DNA of 64,000 bases from Chthoniobacteraceae bacterium. GTDB taxonomy: Bacteria > Verrucomicrobiota > Verrucomicrobiia > Chthoniobacterales > Chthoniobacteraceae. The position numbers and the translations under genes are program-made. Numbering within the stretch: the first letter of the stretch is position 1; the number at the start of each line of letters is the position of its first letter. Positions 19,772 to 38,967 of this stretch are shown here, piece by piece. Below the pieces are notes generated by a model. That model was not told where the DNA came from and made no database searches. It worked only from the letters and a program-made list of their open reading frames with translations. Location of the stretch: NCBI GenBank assembly GCA_947471505.1, contig CANIWM010000025.1, positions 1 through 64,000 of the forward strand, written 5' to 3'.

Positions 19772-22700
19772 TTATGCGCGACGGCGGCGGAATGCGGCGA
19801 GGATGCCGAGCCCGCTGAGTAGCGAAATGATCGCGCCGGGCTCCGGCACTACGACGATGCTTCCGTCCGCGGACAGCGCACTGGTGTCCCATGTGTAGTC
19901 GAACGTGAGCGACGGCAGATTGAGCGTGGCGAACGAACCGGCGAAGCTCGCGGCATCGAACAAATTGAACGAATCGCCGGGCGTGAGCGTATCGCCGGTG
20001 GCGGTGACGTTGAGCGTTCCGCCGAGCGTGAGTGCGCCGGTGACGTTGGCGAGATCCGCACTGAGCGTGAAGCCGCTCTTGTTGAGTTCAAATGCCGCCG
20101 TTCCTCCGAGTGCGAGCGTGCCGCTGACGTTCAGCGTCCCGATGCTTGCTCCGGGCGCGAAGGTGCCGCCGTTATTCACCGTCGTTGCGCCGACCGTGCC
20201 GCCGCTTCCGCCGAGGGTTCCGCCGTCCACCGTCACGGTGCTGCCGCTGATGCTGCCCGAGACGAGCAGCGTGCCCGCCGTTACCAGCGTCGCACCGGTG
20301 TAGGTGTTCACTCCGCTGAGCGTCTGTGTGCCCGTGCCGACTTTCGTCAGTGCCGTGGAGCTAGGATTGTCGAAACTGTCGGCGATGACCCCCGAGAATG
20401 TGGTGCTCGAATTATCCCCGCCCGTCTTCAGTGTGTGCGTGCCGAAATACTCGCCGCGCACCGTTCCCGTGCCGGACAGCGATCCAATCGCGACGGTGGT
20501 GTTCGCGCCTGCGCTGTAGAGTGTGAGGAAGGATCCCGCGCCTACCGTTACCGGTGATCCGAGACCATTGGTTCCGGCACCGAACGGCGTGCCGTCATTC
20601 ACGGTGTCGTAGTAGTTCGCCTGCAGCTCGCTGCTTGCAGCGACGACCGTCGGCCCCGTGTAGGCCGCGCTGCCGACGATGAGGAAGCGCGCGCCGCCAG
20701 TCTGCACGGTGAGTCCGCCACTGCCCGTGATGCTGCTCCCATTGAGATGCGCGAACGAACTGCGATTCGGGCCCATCGCAAGCTGCACGGTGCCGCCGCC
20801 CGCGTTGAGTGAGAGGCCCTTCTTAGCGTTGTCCGGCAAAAAATTGCCGCCGGTGTAGCGCAGCGTGCCCATCGTGCTCGCGCCGCCGAGAGTTACCGGC
20901 AGTGCGCTATTGCCCAGCGGGCCGTCAGTGCCGTCGTTGTTCCAGTTGTTCGTCATGAGCGTGCCGTCCGCGACGGTGACTGCGCCGGTGAACGTGTTGG
21001 CACCAGGGATGGTGGCGGTGCCGCCGTTCACCGTGAAGGTGGAGCCGATCCCCGCGATGACGCTGGCGCCAGCTTGCGTGAACACCGTCGATGCACCGCT
21101 CACCGTGATGCTCGTGCCTGAGAGTGTCCCGGTGAGACTCAACGTGCCATCGTTGACCGCCGTCGCGCCAGTGTAGGTATTCGCATTGGAGAGTGTGACC
21201 GTGCCGTTACCCGTCTTTGTCACGCCACCCGCGCTCGCGCCATTGGCGATCACGCCCGCGATGGTGTGGTTTCCGACGACTTCGAGTCCCGCACTGCCAG
21301 CCACATTAAAGCCAATATTCACGGGAACCGTCGTAGGAACACCCGTGTAAGTGAGCTGAAATTTCGCGCCGTTATTGATCGTGATGAAATCAGGCACCAA
21401 CGCCACCGGCGCCGGCATACTGCCCGCGCCGAACCAATCGAGCGCTCCCGCATTGATCGTCACCTTTCCCGTGAAGACATTGTTCGCGATGCCGTTGGAG
21501 CCGAGTTGCAGCGTTCCGCCGCCTTCCTTGATGAGATTGCCGCCGTTGGACTGGAAGCGGTTGAACCCACCTGCGAAATTCAGCGTCGAGCCCGTGATGA
21601 CATCGATCGTGTTGTTGCCCGAGACGAGATTCACGCCGCGCAAATCCCCGCTGGCGCTTGCACCGGTGTAATTGATGCGTCCGCCATTCATCTGGATGAA
21701 CGTCGTCGCAGCGGCTCCCGGATTGTTCCCAGCAGTTCCCCACGGGCCTGCGACGCCCGAGAGATTCCACGATGGCACGCTGATCGCGCCGCCGTTGATC
21801 GTCACGAGTCCGTTGTGCGAGTTTGCACCGGAGAGTGTGAGTGCGCCGTTGCCGATCTTGGTCAAACTGCCGCCGCCGCCGGAAAGAACACCGGCAAACA
21901 CGGTCGATGTGTTGTCGCCGCCCACAGTGAGCGTCTTCGCCCCGAGGACGACGGAAGAGCCGCTCACTCCCGCGAGCGATCCGACCGTTTCGCCGCCTGC
22001 GGTGATTCCGGAGATATTCAGCACCGCCGTCGCACCGGAGACATTTACTGCAGAAGTATCCGCAATCGCCCCCGCACCGCTCAGCGTAAGCGTTCCACCG
22101 CTAATCGTGGTCGCGCTGCTGTAGGTGTTCGCCGCCGTCAGAGCGAGGTTGCCGTTCCCAGATTTTGTGATTCCGCCCGCGCTGGCACCGTCGGAAATCA
22201 CACCGGGAATCGTGTGCGTGGCCGCAGGAATCGAGAATCCCGCATTCCCCACCACTTTGAAGCCCACGTTTGCATTCACTGTGGAACCGCCGACATAGGA
22301 CAACTGGAATGTCGCGCCGTTATTGATCGTGATGAAATCCGACACGAGAGCCGCGGGAGACGGCATACTTTCGCCGCCGAACCATTCGAGCGTCCCGGCA
22401 TTGAGGGTCACTTTTCCGGTGAAAACATTGTTCGCGATGCCGTCGGTGCCAAGTTGCAGCGTGCCGCTGCCTTCCTTGATGAGATTGCCGCCGTTCGACT
22501 GGAATGTGTTGAAGCCTGCGAAATTGAGCGTCGAGCCCGTTATGATGTCGATCGTGTTGTTGCCCGAGACGAGATTTACCCCGCGCAAATTGCCAGTCGC
22601 AGATGGGCCGGTGTAGTTGATGCGTCCGCCATTCATCTGGATGAACGTCGTCGCCGGTGCCCCGGTATTATTCGCCACGGCTCCCCACGGGCCCGCGGCA

Positions 22701-25700
22701 CCGGAGAGATTCCATGTCGGGACGGAGATCGCGCCGCCATTGATCGCGAAGAGTCCAGTGTGAGTACTCGCGCCCGAGAGCGTCAGCGTTCCGGTGCCCA
22801 CTTTCGTGACTGCTACTGGTCCACCGTTGTTTTGAAAAATGCCGGAAAACGCGGTGCTTGTGCCGTCCCCTCCGATCTTGAACGTATGGATCCCGCCACC
22901 CTCGCCCTGCGCAGTACCCGAGCCTGAAAGCGAACCCAGCGCGACCGTTGTGTTGGCATTGTTACTGTAAAAAGAGAGCAACCCACCGCTATTCACCGTC
23001 ACTGCCGAACCGAGGCCGTTCAGTCCCGCGCCAAACGGGGTGCCGTCATTCACCGTGTCGAGGTAGTTCGTCTGTATTTCGCTGCCTGCGGCAACCACAG
23101 TCGGCCCGGTGTATGGAGCACTGCCTATCACGATGAACCGCGACGTGGCACCACCAGCGAACGTATCCACGGTGAGTCCGCCGCTGCCGGTGATCCTGTC
23201 ACCGTTGATGTGGATGTAGTTACTACCCCGATTTCCCGCCACATACACCATCTCCACTTTCCCACCGCCCGCAGCGAGACTCAGTAGTTTGATAGTTGTC
23301 GGCACATTGTTCGAGCCTCCGCCCGTAAAGCGCAGCGTGCCCTGCGTCGTCGCGCTGCCGAGTGTCAATGGCAGCGCGCTATTCCCGAGCGGGCCGTTCG
23401 TGCTGCTGTTGTTCCATACTGGCACACTCAGCGTTCCCGCCTCGACCGTCAGCGCGCCGGTGAATGTATTGGCACCCGTGAGTATCTGCGTGCCCGTACC
23501 GATCTTGGTGACCGCACCGCCCACACCGGAAATGACGCCCGCATACGCTGCCGGGCTGGTGTTGTCGCCGCCAAGCCTCAGGGTTGCAGCCCCGAGGGTG
23601 ACGTTTCCGCCGGTCGCACCACCGCCGGTGAGTGAGCCGATTTGCGTATTGAAGCCGGTGATATCCAAGGCCACTCCCGCGACGTTGGACAAGTTGACCG
23701 CAGAGTTTTTGCCGAACGCACCGCTGGCATTGGCCACCGAAGCCACGCCCGCCTTGAGCGTCCCGCCGTTGACGTTGGTCGCCCCGGTGTAGGTGTTCGC
23801 GCCGCTCAATGTGACGGCTCCTGCTGATGTCAGGGCCGCAGCCCCGGTGAGCGCGCTCGATACCGTCAACGTGCCGCCACCACCACCGAGGCGGAAGCCG
23901 TTGCTTCCCGGCGTGAGCGTTCCGCTATAGGTGAAATTCCCAGTCGTTCCGAGGAAGAGGCTGCTCGTGCTCGAAAAGTCCACGTTGGAACTATCATTGG
24001 CCGGCAGCGCCAGCACACCGGAGGAGGCCGCAGCGATTCGTCCGCTGCCCGCCCACAGACCAGCGGTCGTGAAGCCGGCGGGACCTGTCGCTGCCAGTAC
24101 TCCGCTTGCGTTGATCGTCACATTGCCGGTGGCGGGCACGGAGCCAGCCCCCGCGCCAAACACGAGGAGTCCGGCGTTCACAATCGTGCCGCCAGTGTAC
24201 GTGTTCGCACCCGAGAGTGTGAGATTGCCTGCGCCCGTCTTGGTGACGCTGCCTGGGTTGGCACCGTTGGCGATGGCACCGGCAATGGTGTGATTTCCAA
24301 GAATTTCGATGCCCGCACTGTCGCTCACCTTAAAGCCGATGTTCGCGGGAACCGTCGTAGGCGCACCGGTGTAGGTCAGTTGGAACTTCGCGCCGTTATT
24401 GATCGTGATGAAATCAGACACCAGCGCGCCCGGACTCGGCATGCTCCCCGCGCCGAACCAATCGAGCGCTCCCGCATTGATCGTCACCTTTCCCGTGAAG
24501 ACATTGTTCGCGATGCCGCTGGAGCCGATTTGCAAAGTTCCTCCGCCCTCCTTGATAAGGTTCCCTCCGTTGGACTGGAAGCGGTTGAACGCACCTCCAA
24601 AAGTGAGCGTCGAGCCCGTGATGATATCGATGGTGTTGTTGCCGGAGACGAGATTCACGCCGCGCAAATCACCGCTCGCCGCTGCGCCGGTGTAGTTGAT
24701 ACGCCCGCCGTTCATCTGGATGAATGTCGTGGCCGCCGCTCCGTTCGCCGCCGCTCCCCACACACCGGCTGCCCCGGAAAGATTCCACGACCCCACATTC
24801 ACCGCGCCGCCATTGATCGACACCAACCCGGTGAAAGTATTCGCACCGCTCAGCGTCAGCGTGCCGTTGCCGGTCTTTGTCAGCTTCCCGCTGCCCGTGC
24901 TGTTTTGCAGCACACCGCCGATGGTCGTATTCCCCGCGCCGCCGACCGTCAGCGTTTGGTTTTTCAAATCAAACGCACTGCCCGTGAAAGCAAGCGTCCC
25001 GCCCGCAGTCGCACTCGTCGTCAAGTCCGCGTCCAGAAACACGCCGCCCGAGAGCGTGTTTGTCCCGCTCGTATTCTGCGAAGCAATCGTCCGTGTGCCC
25101 TGCGTCCCGCTCGCCGATGGACGCACCACCAGCGTGCTCGCCAGTGTCTGTGCGCCCGCCGCCGCCGTGAGGCTCACCGTCGCCGCGCCGCTATCCGCCG
25201 CGGTGCTGCCGAGACGGATGATGCTCCCGTTCACCGAGCCACCCGCCGCAAACGCCAGAGTCCCCGCATTCACAAAAGTATCGCCCGTGTAAATATGTGC
25301 GCTTTGGAAAACAACCGTGTTCGCCTGCTCGATGGCAAACGAACCGCCCTGCGAAATCACCGTCCCTGCCCCGAATGTCACCGTCCGATTATTCGGTCCA
25401 TAGACGTGCAGCGCGTTTCCATTCGTGAACACGTTCGCGCTATTGATCACCAAATCGCCGTTCACCGGATTGAACTCACCCGTGCCCGCCTGACCCGCAT
25501 TGATTGCCAGACTCGCCAGCGAAACCGTCTGCGTCACCGTGCTGTAGTTCTCAATCTTTCCGAAAAGATCGATGGCATTCCCGCCCACGTTAAATTGCCC
25601 CGCCGTTGCCGCGAAGAACAGCGAATGAAAATCATCAAACGCCGTGTAGTTGTTGAAAGGAGTCAGGCGCGTCGTTCCGTCAAACGTCAAATCTACCGTC

Positions 25701-25882
25701 GCACCGACCGGCGGCGGGCCGTCCGGGCTCCAGTTCGCGCCGGTCCCCCAATTGTCATCCGCTCCGCCGCCATCCCAAATGACTCCTGCGTTTGCAGGCA
25801 CGATCAAGAAGGGTGAAAGGAGCGCGATGCTGGTGAGGAGGATGGAACGTGGGGTTCTGAAGAAAGGTGGAGTCATGTTCAT
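19772..25882 (-). CDS. Autotransporter-associated beta-strand repeat PEP-CTERM protein
   Basis: 2036-aa surface protein. Signal peptide spans about residues 10-35 (SILLTSIALLSPFLIVPANA), then DGGGADDNWGTGANWSPDG, then dozens of copies of the autotransporter-associated beta-strand repeat (PF12951; pattern K.G.GTLTLSGANTYTG...V..G.L). It ends in a PEP-CTERM sorting signal: VPEPG, a hydrophobic helix and the basic tail RRRRA, meaning exosortase-dependent processing and anchoring or release. No C-terminal autotransporter barrel is present. The protein would form a long beta-helix on the cell surface, probably in a biofilm or exopolysaccharide context. Start ATG 25882; ATG 25876 is also possible. 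Confidence 0.93.
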   Translation of the reverse strand: MNMTPPFFRTPRSILLTSIALLSPFLIVPANAGVIWDGGGADDNWGTGANWSPDGPPPVGATVDLTFDGTTRLTPFNNYTAFDDFHSLFFAATAGQFNVGGNAIDLFGKIENYSTVTQTVSLASLAINAGQAGTGEFNPVNGDLVINSANVFTNGNALHVYGPNNRTVTFGAGTVISQGGSFAIEQANTVVFQSAHIYTGDTFVNAGTLAFAAGGSVNGSIIRLGSTAADSGAATVSLTAAAGAQTLASTLVVRPSASGTQGTRTIASQNTSGTNTLSGGVFLDADLTTSATAGGTLAFTGSAFDLKNQTLTVGGAGNTTIGGVLQNSTGSGKLTKTGNGTLTLSGANTFTGLVSINGGAVNVGSWNLSGAAGVWGAAANGAAATTFIQMNGGRINYTGAAASGDLRGVNLVSGNNTIDIITGSTLTFGGAFNRFQSNGGNLIKEGGGTLQIGSSGIANNVFTGKVTINAGALDWFGAGSMPSPGALVSDFITINNGAKFQLTYTGAPTTVPANIGFKVSDSAGIEILGNHTIAGAIANGANPGSVTKTGAGNLTLSGANTYTGGTIVNAGLLVFGAGAGSVPATGNVTINASGVLAATGPAGFTTAGLWAGSGRIAAASSGVLALPANDSSNVDFSSTSSLFLGTTGNFTYSGTLTPGSNGFRLGGGGGTLTVSSALTGAAALTSAGAVTLSGANTYTGATNVNGGTLKAGVASVANASGAFGKNSAVNLSNVAGVALDITGFNTQIGSLTGGGATGGNVTLGAATLRLGGDNTSPAAYAGVISGVGGAVTKIGTGTQILTGANTFTGALTVEAGTLSVPVWNNSSTNGPLGNSALPLTLGSATTQGTLRFTGGGSNNVPTTIKLLSLAAGGGKVEMVYVAGNRGSNYIHINGDRITGSGGLTVDTFAGGATSRFIVIGSAPYTGPTVVAAGSEIQTNYLDTVNDGTPFGAGLNGLGSAVTVNSGGLLSFYSNNANTTVALGSLSGSGTAQGEGGGIHTFKIGGDGTSTAFSGIFQNNGGPVAVTKVGTGTLTLSGASTHTGLFAINGGAISVPTWNLSGAAGPWGAVANNTGAPATTFIQMNGGRINYTGPSATGNLRGVNLVSGNNTIDIITGSTLNFAGFNTFQSNGGNLIKEGSGTLQLGTDGIANNVFTGKVTLNAGTLEWFGGESMPSPAALVSDFITINNGATFQLSYVGGSTVNANVGFKVVGNAGFSIPAATHTIPGVISDGASAGGITKSGNGNLALTAANTYSSATTISGGTLTLSGAGAIADTSAVNVSGATAVLNISGITAGGETVGSLAGVSGSSVVLGAKTLTVGGDNTSTVFAGVLSGGGGSLTKIGNGALTLSGANSHNGLVTINGGAISVPSWNLSGVAGPWGTAGNNPGAAATTFIQMNGGRINYTGASASGDLRGVNLVSGNNTIDVITGSTLNFAGGFNRFQSNGGNLIKEGGGTLQLGSNGIANNVFTGKVTINAGALDWFGAGSMPAPVALVPDFITINNGAKFQLTYTGVPTTVPVNIGFNVAGSAGLEVVGNHTIAGVIANGASAGGVTKTGNGTVTLSNANTYTGATAVNDGTLSLTGTLSGTSITVSGASTVFTQAGASVIAGIGSTFTVNGGTATIPGANTFTGAVTVADGTLMTNNWNNDGTDGPLGNSALPVTLGGASTMGTLRYTGGNFLPDNAKKGLSLNAGGGTVQLAMGPNRSSFAHLNGSSITGSGGLTVQTGGARFLIVGSAAYTGPTVVAASSELQANYYDTVNDGTPFGAGTNGLGSPVTVGAGSFLTLYSAGANTTVAIGSLSGTGTVRGEYFGTHTLKTGGDNSSTTFSGVIADSFDNPSSTALTKVGTGTQTLSGVNTYTGATLVTAGTLLVSGSISGSTVTVDGGTLGGSGGTVGATTVNNGGTFAPGASIGTLNVSGTLALGGTAAFELNKSGFTLSADLANVTGALTLGGTLNVTATGDTLTPGDSFNLFDAASFAGSFATLNLPSLTFDYTWDTSALSADGSIVVVPEPGAIISLLSGLGILAAFRRRRA
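20390..24830. repeat. Two families of long internal repeats in the beta-strand gene
   Basis: A roughly 620-bp module occurs three times (about 21190-21810, 22160-22790, 24210-24830), coding for TTFIQMNGGRINYTG, RGVNLVSGNNTID, NGGNLIKEG and VFTGKV.INAG. A second module of about 600 bp occurs twice (about 20390-21000 and 22870-23480), coding for GNSALP.TLG, TGSGGLTV, YTGPTVVAA and NDGTPFGAG.NGLGS. Copies are similar but not identical in DNA, so they arose by older tandem duplication within the gene. Boundaries are approximate. Confidence 0.8.
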
Positions 25883-26036
25883 GGTGATATTCTTAAGGAT
25901 AGGATGGAGCACTCAACTGCTGAGTTCAAGGGAAGGTAATTACATTAGAGGAAACGTCCATCACGCATTCGCGGGATGATGCGATCCGAGTTTGCGGCTT
26001 TGCGGGGTGGGGGATTCCTACGATACTGGGAACTTC

Positions 26037-28001
26037 ATGCCTGCTCCATCGCTGCCAATCATCTCGACGCTCGCTGCGTTGCTTGCGAATGCCGCACTGG
26101 CCTCGGGGCCGGCGGATGCGCTTGCGCGGTTGGGTTCGGCGGAGCTTCGGGGGCATGATGCGCGGGTGGATTCCCTGCAAGCGGAAATGGCGAGTCTGCC
26201 TCCTGTGCCGGAGGCGCAAACGGTGGCGCGGGTGGGGTGGCACAGCACGTTTAGCCGTGGGGAGCGCGCGGCGGATGTGTTACAGAGTGTGGTGGTCGAT
26301 CTCGGTGCGAGCGGGGCTTTTGATTCGGTGGTACTGGTGCCGGTGAATGTGGCGTATGGGACCCATCCGGGGCCGGGCTATGGATTTCCGCGCCGCTTCC
26401 GGATTGAGTCGGCGGAGGACGCAGAGTTTTCAATGCCGCTGGTGCTGGCGGATTTTGGTGGGGCGGATTTTCAAAATCAGGGGAGTCTTCCGGTCTGTGT
26501 GGAGACGCCAGGTGCGCGTGGGCGTTTTGTGCGTGTGACGGCGACGCGGCTTTTCTCGCGGGGAAATGAAGCGCTGTTTGCGCTGGGTGAGCTCATCGTG
26601 TGGCGCGGTCCGGTGAATATCTCGGCGGGCGCGATGTGTCGGACGAGTAGTAATTATGAAAACGCGCCGACATGGCAGCCGGGAAATCTCACCGATGGCC
26701 AGACGGTGCTCGGGCCGCCGGTGATCATCGGACCTACGCCGGGCAACGGATATCACTCGCTGGAGCGGCAGTCGGAGTTTTCGGAAAAGTGGGTGCAGCT
26801 CGACCTCGGTAGCACGCAGTCGCTTGATGAAGTGCGGCTGTTTGCGGCGCGGCCAAAGGATTTCCCCGTCCGTCCGGGTTTTGGTTTTCCGAAACGCTTT
26901 CGGGTAGAAGCGAGCGAGATGGAGGACTTTGCGAAGCGGGTTTCGTTGGTGGAGTTTGCCGACACTGATTGCGAGAGCCCCGGCGATAATCCGTTCGTGG
27001 TCGCAGCGCGGGGAATCTCCGCGCGCTATGTGCGGGTGACGGCGACGCGACTGTGGGCGCGGCACAATGATTTCGTCTTTGCGTTGAGCGAAATGGAGGT
27101 GTTCTCGGGAGGTAGAAATATCGCGCTGGGGGCCACCCCGTCGGCTTTGGAGGACATCAATCTGCCGAACTGGAGGCTCATGTTTTTGAACGATGGCTTC
27201 ACGAGTGCAGGCTGGCTCACGGACTGGAGCGGGTGGCTGCGCGGGCTTTCGCGGCGGCGCGAAGTGATGCAGGAGCTCGCGGCGCTGGAAGCCGCCCGCG
27301 AGCCGCTGGTGACGGCTGCATTTTGGCGGCTCGGGAAATGGACGGCTGTCGCTGCGGGCGGCGTCGCGCTTCTCGGGGCGTGGTGGAGCGTGCGCCAGCG
27401 CAAGGCGCGGCGGCGGGAGTTGGCGAGATTGCGCCAGCGCATAGCGGGCGATTTGCACGACGAAATCGGGAGCAACCTCGGCAGCATCGCGATGCTCGCG
27501 AACCTCGCGTCCGACCATGGTGACAACAAGTCCGAGCTCGCGGAGATTCAGCGCATCGCACAGGAGACGGCGGATTCTATGCGCGACATCGTGTGGCTCA
27601 TCCAGCCGGGCCGCGGTAATTCGTCGGACCTTGCGGGTCGGATGAGGGAGATCGCGCTGAAGCAGCTTGCTGGGAGCGAATGCGTGTTTGAAGCGGAGGG
27701 CGTGTGCGGGCCATTCTCGCTGGATTTTGAGCGGCAGGTAATCCTGTTTTTCAAGGAGGCTCTGAACAACATCCGCAAGCACGCCCGCGCCCGGCGCATC
27801 GGCATCCGTCTCACGCAGAAAGGACGCGACTTTTCCCTGCTCATCGCGGACGACGGCGAGGGCTTCGACATGGCCACGCCACGCCACGGTCACGGGCTCG
27901 TGAGCATGAATCACCGCGCCGGGCTCATCGGCGCGACGCTCGCCGTGGAGTCCAGCCCGAGCAACGGAACCCACCTCGCGCTTCACGCCCGCATTCCATG
28001 A
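26037..28001 (+). CDS. Sensor histidine kinase with two discoidin-like modules
   Basis: 654-aa membrane kinase. Signal peptide/anchor (about 1-22), then two roughly 150-residue discoidin (F5/8 type C)-like modules at about 66-200 and 235-390, each with GFPRRFR.E or GFPKRFRVEA and FVRVTATRL or YVRVTATRL. One transmembrane helix at about 435-452 (AVAAGGVALLGAWW), then a HisKA_3 dimerisation domain with phospho-acceptor His474 in DLHDEIGSNLGS and a HATPase_c domain (EALNNIRKHA N-box, DDGEGFD G-box). Discoidin modules bind glycans, so the input is probably a polysaccharide outside the cell (inference). Start at ATG 26037 with GGGA upstream. Overlaps the regulator gene by 4 bp (ATGA). Confidence 0.93.
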   Translation: MPAPSLPIISTLAALLANAALASGPADALARLGSAELRGHDARVDSLQAEMASLPPVPEAQTVARVGWHSTFSRGERAADVLQSVVVDLGASGAFDSVVLVPVNVAYGTHPGPGYGFPRRFRIESAEDAEFSMPLVLADFGGADFQNQGSLPVCVETPGARGRFVRVTATRLFSRGNEALFALGELIVWRGPVNISAGAMCRTSSNYENAPTWQPGNLTDGQTVLGPPVIIGPTPGNGYHSLERQSEFSEKWVQLDLGSTQSLDEVRLFAARPKDFPVRPGFGFPKRFRVEASEMEDFAKRVSLVEFADTDCESPGDNPFVVAARGISARYVRVTATRLWARHNDFVFALSEMEVFSGGRNIALGATPSALEDINLPNWRLMFLNDGFTSAGWLTDWSGWLRGLSRRREVMQELAALEAAREPLVTAAFWRLGKWTAVAAGGVALLGAWWSVRQRKARRRELARLRQRIAGDLHDEIGSNLGSIAMLANLASDHGDNKSELAEIQRIAQETADSMRDIVWLIQPGRGNSSDLAGRMREIALKQLAGSECVFEAEGVCGPFSLDFERQVILFFKEALNNIRKHARARRIGIRLTQKGRDFSLLIADDGEGFDMATPRHGHGLVSMNHRAGLIGATLAVESSPSNGTHLALHARIP

Positions 28002-28645
28002 AATCGACCAGCAACATCAGCATCTGGCTCATCGAGGACAACGCGACCTTTCGCCGCACCATCGCGCGCACCATCGCGAAGCAGCCGGGGTTCTCGTGCG
28101 ACGGCGATTTTGGCCGCGCCGAGGACGCGCTCGCCGCGCTGAAGACGCAGGCCAAACCGGCAATCATCCTCCTCGATGTCGGGCTGCCCGGCATGAGCGG
28201 AATCGAAGCCATCCCGCAACTCCGCGCCCTTGCGCCGGATACGGCGATGCTCATTCTCACGGTGTTTGAGGATGAAGAAAAAATCGTCGCCGCCATCTGC
28301 GCCGGGGCATCCGGGTATTTGCTAAAAACCGCCCCCGCCGAAGAACTCATCCGGGCAATGCGCGACGTCCTCGCCGGATGCGCGCCGATGAACGGCCGCA
28401 TCGCCCGCCGCGTGCTCGAAATGTTTAGCAAGCTCTCGCCGCGCAGAAACGACTACCACCTCACCGAGCGCGAGAAGGCGGTGCTCCAACAAATGACGGA
28501 GGGATTCATCAAAAAAGAAATCGCCGATCACCTCGCTCTCAGCGTCCACACCGTGGACACGCACCTACGCAACATCTACGCAAAGCTCCAAGTGAACACA
28601 CGCACCGGCGCAGTCTCGAAGGCGCTCAAAGAAGGGTTGGTGTAG
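27998..28645 (+). CDS. NarL/FixJ-family response regulator
   Basis: 215-aa regulator: receiver domain at residues 8-125 with acidic pair E13/D14, phospho-acceptor Asp60 in IILLDVGLPGMSG, conserved Thr and Lys in LILTVF and YLLKTA; LuxR-type HTH at about 150-213 (LTEREKAVLQQMTEG...IADHLALSVHTVDTHLRNIYAKL). Partner of the upstream kinase, with which it shares an ATGA overlap. Targets are unknown, but its last 14 codons recur as fragments upstream of other genes here (30978-31022 and, shorter, 33566-33591 and 40253-40265). Confidence 0.95.
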   Translation: MKSTSNISIWLIEDNATFRRTIARTIAKQPGFSCDGDFGRAEDALAALKTQAKPAIILLDVGLPGMSGIEAIPQLRALAPDTAMLILTVFEDEEKIVAAICAGASGYLLKTAPAEELIRAMRDVLAGCAPMNGRIARRVLEMFSKLSPRRNDYHLTEREKAVLQQMTEGFIKKEIADHLALSVHTVDTHLRNIYAKLQVNTRTGAVSKALKEGLV

Positions 28646-28703
28646 GGCGTCCATTCGCATTCGAGGTCGTAGGATGCGGATTTGCACGGGGAACGACCGC
28701 TAC

Positions 28704-30854
28704 TTACGCACCGGCGGCGACGAGGGTTTTGATCCGCCGCTCCAAGTCTTGCCGGGAAACGATGTCCACTACCTCTACGGTGTGCGGAGTGAGGCGGAAG
28801 AGCATCCGGTGATCGATCCCCAGCCGGATTCGCGAAATGCCGGGGAGTGCTTTGAGGCGGACGACTTGCATGAACGCAGTGGATTCGCCCGACGCGATTC
28901 GCCCGAGCGCCTGCATGGCTTGCTTCGCGATCTGGCGGGGAAGCCCATCGATGGTGTTTTGAAAACGCGACGGAAAAGTGATGAGCCGCACGGGCTGCAC
29001 GCCGAGTTGTTCGGGAGGTAGTTCGTGGGCGTCCTCTCGCGAGTCTTGCGCAGACGCGGCTGCGTGTTTTCCGGTTGGCGCGGCGCGGAGTTCTTCCAGA
29101 TCGTGGTGGAGTTTTTGGAGTTCCTTGCGCAGTCCGGCGCGTTCTTCGTTGTGCTCTTTGAGGGAGCCTTTGAGTGCCGCGACTTTGAGGCGGAGGTCGT
29201 GCAGTGCCGCATCATCCTTCGGCGGAAGCGCGGAGTTCGATGTCGGCTGGGCGGCACGCTTCTTTTCCCGGCGCTCGATTTCGCGCCGCGCGTTGTCCAT
29301 GTCGAGTTTCAGTCTGCGGACCTCGGCCGCCTTCGCCTCCAAGTTGCGTCGTGCTTCGCGCAGTTCTTCCGTGTCATGGCCGGCGGCGTGCGACTCCTCG
29401 GCGATTCGCTTTTCGAGGATGTCTGCAAACGGGTCATCCGGCGGGAGTGCGAGTTTATCGTGAGCCTTGACAACGATTTCCAGCAGCCGCGAAGCGTCCT
29501 TGGTGGAAACGAGGGGGATGACGCTGCGGGCGACAAGAATCCCGAGTGCTTTGAGCGGAGAGGAGAGCAATGCGTAGGCGAGGTTTTGGAGGTAAAGGGT
29601 ATCTGTTTTCTGGAGCGCTTCAAGGGAGAGGCCCTTCAGTGCCTCGACAAAATCGCGGGGTTCACTTCCTGCACCGAGCATCTTGATTCCCATGTGCAGC
29701 TCCTCAGGCTCCAGCCCGGACGCCGTGCGGACGGCCAGCAGCCGCATGAGAGGCTCCCGCCGCCAGGCATACATGCAGAGCCACCCGACGCGCTCCCACA
29801 CCTCGTGGAGCTCGATGCGAAAACCGGTCTTCTCAAACGCGGCGGCGGCTTCATCCACGAGCATGAATAGGGCGAGTTGATCAAAGCAGGCCTGATGAAG
29901 CGCCGGGTCTATCTTCGCGAAGTCCCAGCGTGCGACCTCAAAGCCCACGGCCTTTTTTACTTGCGCAAGCGTGAGGTGCTCCTCCGGCGAGCGATACACC
30001 TCATCCACCGTTTTACCGGCGACACTCGACGAATGGCGCAGCCGCTCCTTATCTTTTTCCTCACAGCAGCGCTTGTATTTTTTCCCGCTGCCGCACGGGC
30101 AGAGTTCGTTGCGGCTGTGTTTCTCCACGGCCCGGCGCACGGTGCCGGATTTCACGACACGCGCTTCTTCCGTCCCCTTCACGAGGATAAGGATGGGGTT
30201 CTTCGCCAGCGTAAAAATAGACTCCACATACGAGGTCGAAGTTCGTTTGATTTCTTCGTTTGCCAGCTCCGGTGAAATCTTGATGAGGAAAGCCGAAAGG
30301 TCCGAATCCCCGGCGATTTTTCCGACGTGGCAAAGCACGCTCAAGGCAAGTCGTCTCATCTCACGATCCGGGAATTTGCAGGCATGACGGGCGACGCTCT
30401 TGATTGCGGCGATGAGTTCCGGCGGCAGAGGGCTGTCTCCCTGGCTCTTGTGGGCGTTCACCGCCAAGCAGAGCGCCATCGCCTCATGGTGCGGTTGGAT
30501 CAGTGTCGCGCAGAGCGCATCGACTACATGCTTCACCAAATCGCCCGTCATCCGGGACACGAGCGCTACGAGCAAAATTACATCCCGAAAGTAAGCCAGC
30601 GAGCGAACAATGTGGCGCGAATCGATCGCCCGCCCGGACGCTGCAGCGGCGAACGCGAGGATAAAAAACCCGCCCCAGTCATTGTTATGCAAGACTTCGG
30701 CCAGCCACGCATCCAGCACTAAATCGTCGGCGGGTAGCAGCCCAGCCACCCGCTCCACATTTGCCCGGTGAAACTGCCGTGGCGGGAAAAGTTCCCGCAC
30801 TTCATCGGGGATTAGCGATGACGTTTCCGAAGGTGTAGATTCATGTGAGGACAT
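28704..30854 (-). CDS. SEC-C / coiled-coil / RelE-like fusion protein
   Basis: 716-aa cytoplasmic protein. The N-terminal about 240 residues are helical and unrecognised. A SEC-C zinc-binding motif follows at about 248-265 (RNELCPCGSGKKYKRCC), then a helical region, then long coiled coils at about 500-610 (KAAEVRRLKLDMDNARREIE, LKEHNEERAGLRKELQKLHH). The last about 85 residues (FPSRFQNTIDGLPRQIAKQA to the end) resemble a RelE/ParE-type fold: VRLKALPG..RIRLG.DHR.LFR plus VVDIVSRQDLERRI. No antitoxin gene is adjacent. Function unknown; a ribosome- or RNA-directed role is inference. Start ATG 30854 (MSSHES) is preferred; an in-frame GTG at 30917 would add 21 residues. Confidence 0.7.
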   Translation of the reverse strand: MSSHESTPSETSSLIPDEVRELFPPRQFHRANVERVAGLLPADDLVLDAWLAEVLHNNDWGGFFILAFAAAASGRAIDSRHIVRSLAYFRDVILLVALVSRMTGDLVKHVVDALCATLIQPHHEAMALCLAVNAHKSQGDSPLPPELIAAIKSVARHACKFPDREMRRLALSVLCHVGKIAGDSDLSAFLIKISPELANEEIKRTSTSYVESIFTLAKNPILILVKGTEEARVVKSGTVRRAVEKHSRNELCPCGSGKKYKRCCEEKDKERLRHSSSVAGKTVDEVYRSPEEHLTLAQVKKAVGFEVARWDFAKIDPALHQACFDQLALFMLVDEAAAAFEKTGFRIELHEVWERVGWLCMYAWRREPLMRLLAVRTASGLEPEELHMGIKMLGAGSEPRDFVEALKGLSLEALQKTDTLYLQNLAYALLSSPLKALGILVARSVIPLVSTKDASRLLEIVVKAHDKLALPPDDPFADILEKRIAEESHAAGHDTEELREARRNLEAKAAEVRRLKLDMDNARREIERREKKRAAQPTSNSALPPKDDAALHDLRLKVAALKGSLKEHNEERAGLRKELQKLHHDLEELRAAPTGKHAAASAQDSREDAHELPPEQLGVQPVRLITFPSRFQNTIDGLPRQIAKQAMQALGRIASGESTAFMQVVRLKALPGISRIRLGIDHRMLFRLTPHTVEVVDIVSRQDLERRIKTLVAAGA

Positions 30855-30977
30855 GGCCGCAGGAGATAACCGGCCCTTCAAAGAAAACTCAAGCGTCGCG
30901 AAGTCCGGAATACCCACGAGCGATTGCCGAAGGCGGCGAAACGCCGGCGCAAGGCTTGTGGAACATCGGGGAACGCC

Positions 30978-31022
30978 CGCACCGGCGCAGTCTCGAAGGC
31001 GCTGAAGGAAGGGCTGGTGTAA
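30978..31022 (+). pseudogene. Fossil 3' end of a response-regulator gene
   Basis: These 15 codons translate to RTGAVSKALKEGLV and a stop, identical in protein to the C-terminus of the regulator at 27998-28645; 41 of 45 bases agree with 28601-28645 and the four differences are synonymous or in the stop codon. Upstream similarity fades within a few codons (N-A for N-T). It sits 127 bp before the XRE gene and has no start, so it is a remnant. Confidence 0.8.
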
Positions 31023-31607: not shown

Positions 31608-31739
31608 GACTCCGAACGGGTGTTTCTCCATAAAACCCTCCCTGCCGCTGTGTTGCGGCTGCAACAACTGTTGCAGAGACGCTTTGCCGGGGTTCGGGTT
31701 TTCTTTGCGTCATGCTCGCTTGGGTTTTCAGCACGGCTT

Positions 31740-32054
31740 GGTGGTTTTGTCGTTCGACGGAATGGTTTTGTCGGACGACAGAATCATTCTGCGGCGGTGC
31801 AGGATGGTTTTGCAAAGGAACAGAATCATTCTGTTGCACGACAGAATCGTTCGGCGGGACGATAGGATGGTTTTGCGACGCGACAGAACCAGCCCGTCGC
31901 GCGACGGAATCGTTTTGGAAAACGACAGAATCATCCTGCGACGGTGCGGGGTCGTTTTGTCGGACGACGGAACCAGCTTGCGCTACGACGGAATCATTCT
32001 GCGACGGCGCAGAACCAGTGTGCGGTGCGACAGAACCATTCTGTTTTCCATCCG
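31740..32054. repeat. 21-bp degenerate tandem repeat array, 15 units
   Basis: Fifteen exact-length 21-bp units resembling AATCRTTYTGCGACGCGACAG, from 31740 to 32054. The period is the same as in the array at 301-510 but the sequence differs. All frames are largely stop-free: the plus strand reads heptapeptides like ESFCRTT, the minus strand like QNDSVVR. The plus frame runs in phase into the gene at 32269, giving a long artificial ORF. The intergenic block 31506-32268 contains nothing else except the palindromic elements on both sides. Confidence 0.88.
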
Positions 32055-32060
32055 CCAGGG

Positions 32061-32141
32061 AGGGGGGCCGTCCCGGCCCCCTGAGACGCGGTGCGTCTGC
32101 CCAGACATCCCTGCTTCAAGGGGCCGGGACGGCCCCTCTAC
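32061..32141. repeat. REP-like inverted pair (GC family)
   Basis: Left hairpin GGGGGCCG-TCC-CGGCCCCC (32063-32081), small inner hairpin AGACGC-GGT-GCGTCT, then right hairpin GGGGCCG-GGA-CGGCCCC (32120-32136) followed by TCTAC, that is, GTAG in inverted orientation. The layout matches elements at 60011-60114 and 60741-60829 although the stem bases differ. Confidence 0.8.
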
Positions 32142-32268
32142 TTGCGGTCGCTACGAGGAGGGCTGGGTGATGGCGCTTTGGGGCGCGGGGAACTGGAACT
32201 CGGGAATTTTGTGGGGGCCATCAGCGCCTTCACCAAACAACAAAACAACACATAAAAAGAAACATACT

Positions 32269-32970
32269 ATGAAACGACAACCATACTTCCCCCGCACAAT
32301 CGACAGACGGCCCGAGTGGTTCGCCGCATTCGCCACGCAGCTCGCGCTCGCCAATGGGACGCTCGGTCTGCCGGCCGATGACGTGACCGATATCGTGGCC
32401 GATGCCCGCTTTTGCGAATACGCGTGCGGCGTGTGGCTTACTGCGGTGCGCGAGTTTGGCCCGGCGGCGACGGCGTCTGTCGAGGAGCTGCTTTCGGGCA
32501 GCGTGGGCGCTTCGTTTACGCTGTCGGTCTTCACTGCGCCTGCGCTGCCCAGCGGTGTGTCGCTGGTGGCGGCGGGTGCGCTGGATCGTATCTTCCTGTT
32601 TGTGCAGACGATCAAAGCGTGCCCGAATTATACGGAGTCGATTGGCCTGCAACTCGGCATCGTGGGCGCGGAGGATGCGGCGGAAAATCCGGTGCCGACT
32701 TTCACGCTGAAGGTGGAGCGCGGCTCGGGCTGTGAGTGTGTGCGTCTGGCGTTCAAAAAATACGGCCATGCCGGTGTGGTGATTCACTGCCGTCGCAATG
32801 GGGGCGCGTGGGAGATGCTGGCGATCGACCTCGCTTCGCCGTATCTCGACGAGCGTCCGCTGCTGGTGCCGACTGCGCCGGAGGTGCGCGAATACCGGCT
32901 TCAGTTTTTCGATGGCTCGGAGGCGACGGGCGAGTTTTCACCTACGCAATCGGTGACGGTGGCTCCGTAG
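32269..32970 (+). CDS. Hypothetical protein, possible beta-sandwich C-terminus
   Basis: 233-aa protein starting MKRQPYFPRTIDRRPEWFAA. The N-terminal half is helical (LALANGTLGLPADDVTDIV, a helix-rich ADARFCEYACGVWLTAVRE), the C-terminal about 90 residues look like a fibronectin-III-type beta domain (GGAWEMLAIDLASPYLDERP, EYRLQFFDGSEATG). Related proteins are known to me only as unassigned verrucomicrobial hypotheticals. No signal peptide. ATG 32269 is preceded by an A-rich leader without Shine-Dalgarno. It is followed after 3 bp by the small gene 32974-33270, so the two form an operon. Confidence 0.8.
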   Translation: MKRQPYFPRTIDRRPEWFAAFATQLALANGTLGLPADDVTDIVADARFCEYACGVWLTAVREFGPAATASVEELLSGSVGASFTLSVFTAPALPSGVSLVAAGALDRIFLFVQTIKACPNYTESIGLQLGIVGAEDAAENPVPTFTLKVERGSGCECVRLAFKKYGHAGVVIHCRRNGGAWEMLAIDLASPYLDERPLLVPTAPEVREYRLQFFDGSEATGEFSPTQSVTVAP

Positions 32971-33444: not shown

Positions 33445-33540
33445 GTAGCTCGACTTTCCAAAGTCGAGGTTTGAGGCAGCCATCAGAAAGACCGGCGTCC
33501 TTTTCTCCGGCTACAACTCGACATTGGAATGGCGAGCTAC
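33445..33540. repeat. REP-like inverted pair (CTCGAC family), copy 1
   Basis: GTAG (33445-33448) then palindrome CTCGACTTTCCAAAGTCGAG (33449-33468); about 48 bp later the inverted partner CTCGACATTGGAATGGCGAG (33517-33536, one mismatch in the stem) and CTAC (33537-33540). Same design as 43338-43432 and 58588-58683. Confidence 0.85.
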
Positions 33541-33565
33541 GCCATTGCGACCGCATGTTATCGAA

Positions 33566-33650
33566 CGAAGGCGCTGAAGGAGGGCTGGTGTCGGGCGTCC
33601 GTTGTTTGCGGGACTATGGGAATGTGCTGCGTGCGGTTATTGGAAGGCGT
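33566..33650 (+). promoter_or_regulatory. Shared upstream leader of the DUF1592 gene with regulator-tail fossil
   Basis: 33566-33591 matches the last 26 bp before the stop of the response-regulator gene with few changes, and the GGGCGTCC after it matches the bases after the real regulator stop. The segment GTTTGCGGGACTATG at about 33604-33618 and the bases up to and beyond the start codon (GTATGTTTCGCTC) are shared with 40263-40333 upstream of the DUF1549 gene. It probably contains the promoter inherited by both genes. Confidence 0.6.
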
Positions 33651-36110
33651 ATGTTTCGCTCTACACCTGTCATTTTGTCACCGTCCGTCGCTGCGCTGCT
33701 TCTCGCTGTCAGCGTCGGACTGGCTGGTGCCGGTGGTGCTGCGGAGCCGTTTGATGCTTTCTTGGAGACGCATTGCATCCGCTGCCACGGGCCGGAGAAG
33801 GAGAAGGGGGATTTGCGCATCGACAGGCTTTCGCGCGATTTCAAGGTGGGCGCGGATACGCATCATTGGGCGGAGATGATCGAGCAGGTGAATTCCGGGG
33901 AGATGCCTCCGAAGAAGGAGAAGAAACCGACGCAGGAGGAGATGGCGGCGTTTGTGACGAGTCTCGATGCGCGGATCAAAGAAGGTCGGGCGGCGCGCAT
34001 GGCGGCGCGTCCGGCGGTGTCGCATTATCGGCTGAGCCGGAAGGAGTATCAAAACACCGTCTATGATCTACTCGGTGTGCGCTATGACCCTGCGAAGCCG
34101 GGGGAGCTGAACGAGGATACGCTGTGGCACGGCTTTGAGCGCATTGGGTCGGAGCTTTCGCTCTCGCCGTCGCATGTGGACCGATACTACCGCGCGGCGG
34201 AATTGGTGCTGGACCGCGCCTTTCCCGCTGAGTCGAGCGAGACTCGGAAGGTGCGCAAGACGGCGGCGGAGTTGCGTTACGGCGGAGGGAAGGAACAGCA
34301 GGCGGCGCTGGATCGCTTTGGTATCAAGCGGCCGCTGCGTTATCTCCTTTTCCCCGGCAGTAACCAGCAGGCGCTTTCGCCCGGTTGGCTGGGAAAGACG
34401 GGGCCGGAGCAGAGCGGGCTCTATAAAGTGCGCATTCAGGCCAGCGGTATCCGTCCGCCCGGTGGTCAGCCGGCGCATTTGAGTATTGGGAAGCGGACTG
34501 GCGAGGAAACGGTGGATGGGCTGGTGGAGTTCGACATTAGGGCTCCGGAGGACAAGCCGCAGGTTTATGAGTTCGAGGTGTTTCTTGAGATGCCTGTGGA
34601 CCTGGAGTTCTGCGTGGTGGCGACGGATGTGGTGGACCGGAGGGCTGGGGCGGCCTTTCGCGGTGCGCTCGGCAGCAGGAGCGGGTATATTTTCACGCAT
34701 AGCAGCGAGACTCTGCTCTTAAACCCGAACGCGCCGCAGATGTTCGACGACAAGGGAAACGGCATCTTTTCGACGGTGCTCCTTGATTGGATCGAATGGG
34801 AAGGGCCGCTGGTGTCGGAGGCGGAAAAATCGCGCCGCAAAGACCTGTTGCCGCCTGATGACGCGACGCCGGAGGTGGTCGCGGAGCATTTGCAGCGCTT
34901 TGCCGAACGCGCCTGGCGGAGGCCGGTGAAGAAGGAGGAGCTGGAGCAATATTTGCAATCCTACCGCACCGAGCGCGAGGCTGGCGAGAAGACCGCCGAG
35001 GCCTATCGCGTGGCTCTGAATGGCGTGCTGACTTCGCGACACTTCATTTACCTCGTCGAGGGCGACACGGTGCCACGCGAACGTCTCACGGACGCCGAAC
35101 TCGCCTCGCGCCTTTCGTATTTCCTGTGGAGCTCGATGCCGGACGACGCGCTCTTTAGCGCTGCGAAAGGCGGCACGCTGAATGGCGACGGCCTCGCGAA
35201 AGAAGTGGACCGCATGCTCGCGGACGGCAAAGCCAGCCGCTTCATCGATGATTTCTCACGCCAGTGGCTGCAACTGCACCGCGTGGGCATGTTCCCGCCG
35301 GACAAGAAGCTCTACCCGCTTTATGACGCGTGGCTTGAGCAAAGCATGCGAGCCGAGCCGGTGGAGTTTTTCCGCGAGATGTTCGGCAAAAACATTCCCA
35401 TCGATGCCTTCATCGATTCCGACTGGACCGTGGCCAACGCGCGGCTGTGCGATTTTTACGGACTGCCGGAGCCGATGTCGGGCGGCTTCCAGCGAGTCTC
35501 GCTCAAGCCCGAGGATCGTCGCGGCGGGCTGCTCACGATGGGCGCAGTGCTCGGCCTGACTTCCGACGGCACGCGCCACCGTCCGGTGCATCGCGGCGTG
35601 TGGCTCAGCGAGGTGGTCCTCGGCAAGGCGCCGCCGCCGCCGCCGGCGAACGTGCCCGCCATCGAACCCAACCCGCCGAAAGACCCCAAGGCCACCCTGC
35701 GCGACAAACTTGCGTTGCATGCAAAAGACGCAAACTGCGCCGCCTGCCACGCGAGAATCGACCCGCTTGGCTTGGCCTGGGACAATTACGATGCCATCGG
35801 CCAGTGGCGCACGCGCGAGAAAGTCCCCGCTGGAGTGGGCGAGGACCCATTGGTCAATCCCGCCGGCGTGATGTCCGACGGACGCGCGTTCAAGGATGCC
35901 AACGAATTTAAGCGCCTGCTCCTCGAAGACCGCGACAAAATCGCGAGGGCCTTCATCGAGCACCTCTGCACCTACGCCCTCCGCCGCGCTATTGCCTTCG
36001 ACGACCAGGACGAGCTCAAGGCCATCCAGGCCGAAGCGAAGAGGAACGATTACCGCATCAAAGACATCGTCCGTGCCGTTGCGATATCGGAGTTGGCGAG
36101 GAAGCGATGA
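33651..36110 (+). CDS. Secreted cytochrome / DUF1587-1595-1592-1588-1585 protein
   Basis: 819-aa exported protein with signal peptide (about residues 1-30) and an N-terminal cytochrome-like CIRCH at 42-46 (haem c site). Then the planctomycete/verrucomicrobial series DUF1587 ([18 protein letters not shown]), DUF1595 ([18 protein letters not shown]), DUF1592 ([18 protein letters not shown]), DUF1588 ([18 protein letters not shown]...RGVWL) with a second CAACH at 696-700, and DUF1585 at the end. Such proteins act outside the cytoplasm and are thought to take part in oxidation or breakdown of complex carbon. Usually followed directly by a DUF1552 gene; here one gene lies between. Start ATG 33651 chosen for the signal peptide. 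Confidence 0.93.
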
Positions 36111-36142
36111 TCATACCTGCCGCCGCAACATCATAGACCGCC

Positions 36143-37414
36143 ATGTCCGAACGCATTCCCTGCTCGAATCCAGACTGTCACAACACGATCTTGCCATCCA
36201 CAGCGGCGGCAAATAATGGCCTGTGTGCGCCTTGCATTGGTGAAATCAGAAAGAAGGAGCATGAAGAGTATATTCGGCTGAATCGCCGCACGGTTGATCA
36301 GTATGAAGGCATTGCGGACCGAGTTGAAATCGCAGTGATCATGTTGTCGCCCAGAAAATATGATCCGCTGGTAGCCTATGCTCCAGCTCCGTTGTCCGTG
36401 GAGCAACTGTTCGCATCATTGTCCGCAGAAGATGCCTGCCGACTCGCTGCCATCGCATCTCGGGCAATGGAGGATGGCAACGTCGATTTGGCAGAGGATA
36501 TCGGGAAGTCGCTGGCCACCCTCACAGATTTGGATCTGACTGAGATGCTACACGCATGGGTGGCAAAGGATCGCCACTGGCCATCGATCACATTCAGGAT
36601 GGCGAAGCCTGAGATTCGTGACGCCATTATTCAATCTTTGACCGCAGGCCGAGCGAATGCCCATCATGCACTAAGTTCTCTAGCTTGGATTGGTGACGCT
36701 GTAGTCAAGAATGCCTTCGTTGAGTGGGATGTTCAGAGGCCAATTTGGGCGTCTTCCTTGCACGTCAGTCCTTCTGCATACGCTCACACCGCCGGCTGGG
36801 AAATTGTTAACAATTCTCGGTGTGATCTCTTCCACGAGCATTGTCTTGCTTTGACCCAAGCGGATGATGGAAATGCCATCTTTACTGTCAGAACGTTTCA
36901 GGGCACTGGGAGGCCGTGCCCTTGGTGTGGCCATGAGCTATCAAACATGCTGGATATTGATCTCTCAGACCGGGCATTTGCGTTCCTGCGATTTGCGGGT
37001 TCCCGCCTTCCCATTCTTACATGCCATGGATGCACATCTTATGGTGGAGCGTTCTTCTCCAAGGTGGACCTAGATGGAACAGCTCAGCCACATCCGCGCG
37101 GAATCCGCCCCAAGTGGTTGCCCGACACTTCGCAGCCCTGGTCAGAACCCGCTTGGAGAAACATTGGCGTCAAACTCACTTCTCGCCGCGCCATTCACGC
37201 CGCTGATTGGTGCGTGGATATGAAGACGTCGCAAATCGGCGGACTTCCCTGCTGGGTTCAAGACTCCGATTTCCCGCAATGCCCTGATTGCGCCAAGACA
37301 ATGATTTTTATCGCTCAACTGAACGAAGACGACTTCCCAGCCTGTGAGGGCACGTACTATGCGTTTCTTTGCGCTTCGTGCCGCACAACAGCCACAAACT
37401 ACCAACAGACCTGA
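36143..37414 (+). CDS. Cysteine-rich hypothetical protein
   Basis: 423-aa protein with several zinc-ribbon-like Cys pairs: CSNPDC and CAPC in the first 35 residues, CPWCGHE near 265, CHGC near 302, CPDC and CASC near the end. The C-terminal part ([28 protein letters not shown]) resembles DUF1963-type proteins in pattern only. No signal peptide, so cytoplasmic. GC content and codon use are clearly lower than in both flanking genes, and it splits the usual DUF1592-DUF1552 pair, which suggests insertion by transfer. Function unknown. Confidence 0.75.
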
Positions 37415-37467
37415 GTCATCACAAAAGACTCCATTGCACATCAACTATCACTTCAACACTCCATTTT

Positions 37468-38844
37468 ATGAGCAACTACCTATCTCAATCCTGGCTTATC
37501 AACCGTCGCCACGCTCTCAAGGCGCTCGGCAGTTGCATCTCGCTTCCTTTGCTCGAATGCATGGTGCCGCTGCGTGCCGCAGAAAATGCCACCGCCACAC
37601 CAAAGCGTAGCGCTTTCATCTACCTCGCGAACGGCGTGCATTCGCTGAACTACCAGATCACCACGGAGGGCAGGGATTACCAGTTCTCCCGGTCGCTGAA
37701 GCCATTGGAGAAACACCGCGAAGTCATCACGCCCATCAGCGGACTGCATCACCCGGGCAGCCTCAGTTATCACCACAACTGCATCAATGTCTTCCTGACT
37801 GGCGGGAAGCTCGGCCCGTCGGACCGCAACACGATCTCCGTGGACCAAAAGATGGCCGAGATTACCGCGCAGCAGACCCGTGTCGCTTCGATGGAAATCG
37901 CGCTCACGCAGGGCTCCCTTGCTTGGACGGCGGACGGGGTTCAGTTGCCCGCGCTGCGTCGTTGCAGCGAGATTTTCACCTCCCTCTTTGAAGAGCCCAA
38001 AGGCGGAAAAACGGTCCAACGCCGCGCCTTGCGCCGCAAAGGCAGCGTGCTGGACGCCAACCTCGCGGAAGTGCGCCAACTCGAGCAGAAGATGGGCAAG
38101 GAAGACAAAGGGCGCATGGAGCAATACCTCACCTCCGTGCGTGAGGCCGAGATCCGCTCGCGGCGCGCCGATGCGTGGCTCGACACGCCGCTGCCGGCCA
38201 TTTCCGACGCCGACCGCAAACGCACCAATCGCGACATCGCCGCGACCATGGCGGGCGATTATTTCCGCACCGTCTATGACCTCATGGTGCTCGCCTTCCA
38301 GACCGATGTGACGCGGGTGGCCACCTTCAGCCTGGGGGGCGAAGGGGATGCCTTTGCCATTCCCGAAATCGGCATCACCGAGTCGCGCCACCAGCTCAGC
38401 CACCACGGCGGCGATGCCGGCTACATGGAGAAACTCACCAACTACGACGCCTTCGCCATCGAGCAGTTCAGCTACTTCCTCACCCGCCTCGCGGAGACGA
38501 AGGACCTCGGTGGCAAGCCGCTCATCGGTTCCACGATGGCGCTCTTTGGCAGCGGCATGTCCTACGGCCACAGCCACGGCAATGCGAACCTCCCGTTGGT
38601 GCTCGCCGGTGGCTCCGACCTCGGGCTAAAACACGGCAGCCATCTCGACTTCAATAAGACGGCCAAAGGATTCCAAGGCTACGCGCTCGGCGCGGACGGA
38701 GGGCTCACCACCGCTCACTACCAAGTCTGCAGCCGCCCGGTGAACACCGACGCACACATGAGCAACTTGCTCCTCCTCATGGCCCAACGCATGGGCGTGG
38801 AAACCGACAAGTTCGGCGACAGCAACAAGGTCGTCGCGCTGTGA
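37468..38844 (+). CDS. DUF1552 secreted protein
   Basis: 458-aa protein of the DUF1552 family (PF07586), partner of DUF1592 cytochromes. The N-terminus has a twin-arginine signal ([18 protein letters not shown]), implying export in folded form. Family motifs include [22 protein letters not shown]...[21 protein letters not shown], and [20 protein letters not shown]; conserved His and Asp residues suggest a metal site, as in alkaline-phosphatase-like folds. Start ATG 37468 follows an A- and T-rich leader without Shine-Dalgarno. A 28-bp perfect inverted repeat follows the stop. Confidence 0.92.
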
Positions 38845-38867
38845 GGTGGTCGTCAGGGTTTTTGATT

Positions 38868-38943
38868 TCCAGCAGATTCAGGGAGGCCAGCAGATGAAGA
38901 CAAATCAGATCAGAAATCTGCTGGCCTCCCTGAATCTGCTGGA
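38868..38943. repeat. 28-bp perfect inverted repeat
   Basis: Arms 38868-38895 and 38916-38943 are perfect reverse complements (starting TCCAGCAGATTCAGGG), loop of 20 nt. Located between the DUF1552 stop and the next start, so it could end transcription or protect the mRNA, but there is no T-run. Within each arm CAGCAGAT recurs, so each arm can also fold internally. Confidence 0.9.
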
Positions 38944-38967
38944 GACAACATCGAAAAACAAAGAAAC

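Follow-up and report, generated by a model that had tools for sequence, protein, structure and literature searches.

The discoidin-bearing sensor kinase and its cytochrome partner

A sensor histidine kinase (HK) with two discoidin modules and its response regulator (RR) are a real, conserved partner of one particular planctomycete-type cytochrome, as observed in module homology, gene order, strand and repeated pairing. The pair was found in the window, by which we mean the whole stretch of 64,000 nucleotides analysed from Chthoniobacteraceae bacterium contig CANIWM010000025.1. The sensor is likely a switch for the linked cytochrome-type proteins, since the same kind of module is present in sensor and cytochrome and the gene order is kept in dozens of related genomes.

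The gene order in the window is HK, RR, an insert, and then the genes for a DUF1592 protein, a DUF1552 protein, a 418-aa protein and the cytochrome (C). The features are given below with their identities to three loci of a second family (L260, L264 and L265), and the discoidin modules are referred to as K1 and K2 in the kinase and C in the cytochrome.

26037-28001, + strand: sensor histidine kinase (ORF 25992-28001, ATG at 26037; Pfam and translation)
26232-26609, + strand: core of module K1 (BLASTP, genome search)
26658-27146, + strand: module K2, the best PF00754 stretch of the kinase (also BLASTP)
about 27327-27386, + strand: transmembrane segment WTAVAAGGVALLGAWWSV, the one such segment of the HK (translation)
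27432-27986, + strand: HisKA_3 and HATPase_c domains (Pfam; motifs from translation)
27998-28645, + strand: response regulator with receiver and LuxR/GerE DNA-binding domain, overlapping the HK gene by 4 nt (Pfam)
28704-30917, - strand: SEC-C/ParE-like gene, part of an apparent insertion parting HK-RR from the cytochrome genes
33471-36110, + strand: DUF1587-1595-1592-1588-1585 cytochrome-type protein with PSCyt1, 85-86% identical to L260/L264/L265
37369-38844, + strand: DUF1552 protein, 89-91% identical to L260/L264/L265, with homology beginning near 37474
38968-40224, + strand: 418-aa conserved cluster protein, family unknown, up to 85% identical to the L260/L264/L265 genes between DUF1552 and DUF1549
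40322-43279, + strand: C-type protein, secreted PSCyt1-PSCyt2 (DUF1549)-module-PSD1 (DUF1553), ATG at 40322 (Pfam and translation)
41624-42061, + strand: discoidin module of the C-type protein (BLASTP, genome search)

The kinase is ordered as signal peptide, K1, K2, transmembrane segment, HisKA_3 and HATPase_c (Pfam and translation), and its H-box (DLHDEIGSN), N-box (NNIRKHA) and G-box (DDGEGFD) are intact, which makes it a HisKA_3 kinase. Two HisKA_3 matches above the cut-off were found in the window's genome. The UhpB model matched the HK at 7e-19, along the catalytic part alone and far under the model's cut-off. The RR is of the NarL/LuxR type by its Pfam matches (Response_reg 3e-20, GerE 3e-16). 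The C-type protein matched PSCyt1 (9e-15), PSCyt2 (4e-76) and PSD1 (3e-83) in Pfam and contains CLSCH and CAQCH in its translation, as expected of a planctomycete-type cytochrome; about 45 DUF1549 genes are present in this genome of 6.07 Mb. Divergent from the HK gene lies the gene of a 2046-aa protein (19772-25912) with 13 passenger-associated (PATR) repeats and a PEP-CTERM-like end.

Homology and type of the discoidin module

The original prediction of two modules in the kinase and one in the cytochrome was confirmed by Pfam F5_F8_type_C matches in both proteins (PF00754/PF22633; 36.7 and 28.1 bits in the HK, 28.2 and 31.9 bits in the cytochrome, against cut-offs of 28.2 and 27.8), and the module coordinates then given were correct to within tens of bases. 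The modules, which had been expected to align by profile, do so at or above cut-off and also align in pairwise BLASTP, with 37% identity for K1/K2 (E 4e-26), 39% for K1/C (E 2e-21) and 42% for K2/C (E 2e-30). The strong sequence block proposed as common to all three is exact in K2 (GFPKRFRVEA ... YVRVTATRLWARHNDFVFALSE) and C (GFPVRFKVEA ... YVRVTATRLAVRKDDFILALAE) and occurs as a variant in K1 (GFPRRFRIES ... FVRVTATRLFSRGNEALFALGE). When the whole genome was searched with K2, this module subfamily was found at K1, K2 and C only (E<=1e-3), all three copies lying within 16 kb; F5/8 domains as such are more numerous in this genome, about 13 of whose genes give 18 matches.

A structure model of the module, of low confidence (pLDDT 65), gave CBM32 and chitosan- and fucose-binding modules among its best Foldseek matches, with TM scores mostly of 0.45-0.58. 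F-type (fucose-binding) lectins carry the ligand motif H-x(about 26)-R-x-D-x4-[RK]; this motif was present in 0 of 200 modules, and membership of the F-type lectins was rejected. The N-terminal 38 residues of the module resemble fucolectins (E 1e-4). A relation to the rhamnose-binding CBM67 (SaRha78A, 3w5m domain D) was examined by phmmer with L241, a GH78 protein carrying the module, but was not confirmed: the best stretch of alignment to 3w5m covered residues 345-1086 with none over the module; the position of the module in the GH78 protein presumably agrees with that of domain D.

Behind the C module, to about 42136, lies a conserved segment, NLAxxxVTSLDSIExxPRWxxxNLTDG. In the cytochrome (42000-42136) and in rhamnosidase modules the canonical discoidin start (NxAxGxxVTxxDSxExxxRWxxxNLTDG) sits 3' of the core, as if circularly permuted. 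Placing the C-terminal segment first raised PF00754 scores by 2.2, 1.8 and 3.7 bits, compared with 0.6 bits for a shuffled segment, and the structure model leaves the segment unresolved; these scores lend weak support to a circular permutation of the module.

Linkage to the cytochrome in two families

The linkage of kinase and cytochrome was compared in 40 genomes of the window's family and then in a second family. Many of the genomes used look like draft assemblies, with simple ORFs as gene calls and with contig ends hiding neighbours. A C-type DUF1549 gene was found in 22 of the 40 genomes, always one per genome, and the double-module HK in 18. Both were present in 17 genomes, the HK only in 1, C only in 5 and neither in 17, giving a p-value of 5e-6 that is optimistic because the genomes are related. 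HK-RR adjoins C in nine other genomes of the family. Within the HK-bearing genomes, the HK lies beside 9 of 17 module-bearing DUF1549 genes versus 6 of about 796 other DUF1549 genes (Fisher 3e-13). An all-against-all comparison of the fetched neighbourhoods found shared runs of flanking genes mainly among L078, L087 and L112, and most of the nine units therefore stand in different contexts. At L087, a C-DUF1501 pair is absent from an otherwise syntenic place.

The second family (f18, 68 genomes, with the search centred on G273) contained at least 23 genomes with the HK upstream of C, always on the same strand. Sixteen of these pairs are adjacent, their module starts being about 3.7-3.9 kb apart; the other 7 have intervening genes, spanning up to 12.5 kb. 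Where adjacent, the gap from RR to C is mostly below 240 nt, so co-transcription is likely. Of the 33 linked pairs in both families and the window, 32 have the HK upstream of C in the same orientation, against an expected 1/4 (binomial 1e-18, although the pairs are not independent). L260, L264 and L265 have the order HK-RR-DUF1592-DUF1552-genes of 420 to 500 aa-C, which is the window's order.

Downstream of C or its neighbour, an L-lactate (or glycolate) permease gene was observed at seven examined loci of the second family (L263, L265, L269, L274, L277, L278 and L279), and L272 has a FAD-linked oxidase and a class-V aminotransferase after C. An esterase-like hydrolase gene follows C in some second-family loci. 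Given these genes, a link to hydroxy acids is to be kept in mind.

Kinase lineages and the phylum-wide pattern

In a tree of 79 HKs, linkage to C required 4 changes against a mean of 16.3 when shuffled, a value reached in 0 of 500 shuffles. Most C-linked HKs belong to one clade (SH-aLRT 98), where they account for 25 of 31 rows, while the window's HK is in a second C-linked group together with L065 and L066, and L271 forms a third. HKs linked to DUF1592/DUF1552 alone mostly make up a group of their own. As C-linked HKs fall in several groups, pairing with this one DUF1549 orthologue has come about in different HK lineages of the same ectodomain type.

The original prediction had also made its case depend on kinases of this type lying non-randomly to DUF1549 genes in other genomes. 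For the C-type gene this is borne out by the counts in both families, but it does not extend to the phylum: in a sample from outside the window's family, module HKs were near any cytochrome gene in 7 of 39 cases and control kinases in 2 of 18, which is not different, so that no rule can be set up for the HK type at large. The pairing holds for certain HK lineages. The double-discoidin HK-RR would be a sensor type of general occurrence in Verrucomicrobiota, some lineages of which serve cytochromes. With about 45 DUF1549 genes per genome one might lie near any kinase, and the two control kinases had theirs within 5 kb. The probability that the neighbourhood arose by such chance is nevertheless negligible, as this explanation is ruled out by the counts: a single DUF1549 orthologue is involved throughout many genomes, and its order and strand relative to the HK are constant.

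Relatives of the module in rhamnosidases

In a tree of 112 modules, all 27 from cytochromes form a single clade (support 98), and every kinase module falls outside it. Closest to this clade are modules (R) of GH78 alpha-L-rhamnosidases, identified by Pfam where tested, with a support of 90 for C plus R and with K1 and K2 outside. The GH78 rhamnosidases with this module between Ig_Rha78A_N and Bac_rhamnosid_N were found at L228, L233, L235, L239-L241, L243 and L244; no rhamnosidase-borne module was found in the window's genome at E<=1e-3. Elsewhere, some relatives of the HK adjoin genes for GH78 and GH106 rhamnosidases and lambda-carrageenase-like genes.

Because the cytochrome modules group apart from those of the kinase, the kinase was not the source of the cytochrome module. 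That the three genomic copies all lie so close together would suit a functionally meaningless copy passed on between neighbours by gene conversion or duplication, but such local copying is highly improbable: the 27-member clade rules it out unless the tree is badly wrong, and the segment of C that differs from its closest orthologue (see below) resembles K2 no more than other cytochromes do.

Ligand and control

Of the glycan sensing originally proposed, a carbohydrate ligand is favoured, because the other carriers of the module are GH78 rhamnosidases and some HK relatives adjoin rhamnosidase or carrageenase genes. The ligand would then be a glycan, rhamnose-containing polymers being one candidate. 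On balance we consider the following reading somewhat probable: HK-RR reads an extracellular carbohydrate and switches on the linked cytochrome cluster. The two tandem CBM32-like discoidin modules of the HK would read the carbohydrate in the periplasm, its binding would trigger the kinase, and the LuxR-type RR would activate the linked DUF1592, DUF1552, 418-aa and DUF1549 genes. The secreted products of the cluster would bind related material or act on it, with the C module binding the same class of ligand.

Three parts of the original prediction fared less well. Kinase and cytochrome may bind the same class of polymer, as it suggested, but the nearest kin of the cytochrome module is the rhamnosidase module, the kinase modules being more distant, and the ligand of the cytochrome module could therefore differ. 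The RR probably drives the cytochrome genes; a regulatory motif common to the upstream regions of HK and orphan cytochrome genes was sought, and none was found above shuffles. The view of DUF1549 proteins as degradative was unsupported. A CCCGA-N4-TCGGG palindrome was observed upstream of DUF1592/DUF1552-linked HKs at 5 of 10 loci (L070 to L183), which are probably close orthologues.

It is possible, if rather unlikely, that HK-RR controls the cytochrome genes while the module is a general-purpose verrucomicrobial discoidin with different ligands; the HK might bind a free sugar or hydroxy-acid-linked product, for example, and the cytochrome the cell surface or a polymer. The position of the kinase modules outside the cytochrome and rhamnosidase modules, the mutual divergence of K1 and K2 (37%) and the permease, FAD oxidase and aminotransferase genes behind C in the second family agree with this reading. 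However, the subfamily occurs in no other gene of the window's genome, and the repeated pairing of double-discoidin HK lineages with one DUF1549 orthologue is easier under a shared ligand.

Discoidin folds also bind proteins and lipids. The HK could accordingly sense the presence or redox state of a cytochrome assembly, the discoidin modules mediating surface or protein contacts in place of glycan binding; the cytochrome-type proteins suggest redox and the gene linkage is equally well explained. We regard such docking as improbable, as the same subfamily is present in GH78 glycosidases, HK relatives adjoin glycosidases, and HKs of the same kind also occur where no cytochrome is linked.

Comparison with known systems

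The HisKA_3 and HATPase_c kinase with a LuxR/GerE-type RR in the next frame resembles NarL/UhpB-type systems, but the input of the window's HK consists of two periplasmic discoidin modules and no UhpB or NarX/NarQ match was found outside the catalytic part. In biomass sensing through RsgI/SigI in Clostridium thermocellum, a membrane regulator bears a carbohydrate-binding module outside the cytoplasm, and CBMs are also present on the controlled enzymes (PMC4711584). The window's HK is, by its sequence, likewise a membrane regulator with an extracytoplasmic module of a kind also found on a linked protein. The RsgI proteins are anti-sigma factors with CBM3, CBM42, PA14 or GH10, whereas the window combines an HK bearing F5/8 modules with an RR, and its putative targets have no assigned activity. 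The verrucomicrobial GH78 module is of the same subfamily and nearest to the cytochrome module, but sits on a glycosidase.

Rhodopirellula baltica is reported to have 41 copies each of the PSCyt1, DUF1549 and DUF1553 domains (PMC2754498). The C-type protein is a full member of this group by Pfam and differs in being a one-per-genome orthologue, in its discoidin insert between DUF1549 and DUF1553 and in its linked HK-RR. No sensor linked to PSCyt1-DUF1549-DUF1553 proteins was found in the literature searched (DUF1549/DUF1553/DUF1501, planctomycete cytochromes and polysaccharide, discoidin kinases). The functionally uncharacterised DUF1549/DUF1553 and DUF1592/DUF1552 proteins occur in tens of copies in many genomes of Planctomycetota and Verrucomicrobiota. 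Through a dedicated conserved sensor one gains a handle on when one DUF1549-type protein is used, and what DUF1549/DUF1592-type proteins act on would follow from the inducer of the HK or from the ligand that the shared module binds.

Indications of exchange at the locus

Three further features of the window bear on its history.

25946-28648, + strand: HK-RR unit, 95.5% DNA-identical to genus mate G006, with unrelated flanks
30971-31021, + strand: 51-bp remnant or duplicate of the RR 3' end, 90% identical to the window's RR, 94% to that of G006 and 84-87% to the RR ends of L264/L265
41455-42278, + strand: central segment of C with the module, 31-58% protein identity to the G006 orthologue (L101), with 84-86% DNA identity on either side and sharp drops

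Another region of the window is 90% identical to G006, and the ends of the C gene have 84-86% DNA identity. Judged from these breaks in identity, the central segment of C is an exchanged one relative to the G006 orthologue. The middle genes (33471-40224) mostly have 75-91% protein identity to L260/L264/L265, while in the second family the HK reaches about 40% at best, the RR about 61% and C about 57%. The middle genes being far closer to the second family than HK, RR and C, the cassette of DUF1592, DUF1552 and 418-aa genes therefore seems, from sequence comparison, to have moved recently between families and into the same slot. The 51-bp copy lies 2.4 kb behind the intact RR with the SEC-C/ParE-like gene between, and suggests that the DUF1592 cassette was once preceded by another HK-RR, either an older or a second one.

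More speculatively, and with a probability that we judge to be low, the locus could be a mobile, re-targetable island for sensing and surface redox, in which HK-RR lineages, a jumping DUF1592-DUF1552-418-aa cassette and a DUF1549 protein with an exchanged module keep a fixed order, and in which sensor and cytochrome would be fitted to a new glycan by swaps of parts. Between the 51-bp copy and the DUF1592 gene, an ORF at 31684-32970 contains imperfect short tandem-like repeats (CGACAGAATCATTCTGCG-like) at 31740-32045.
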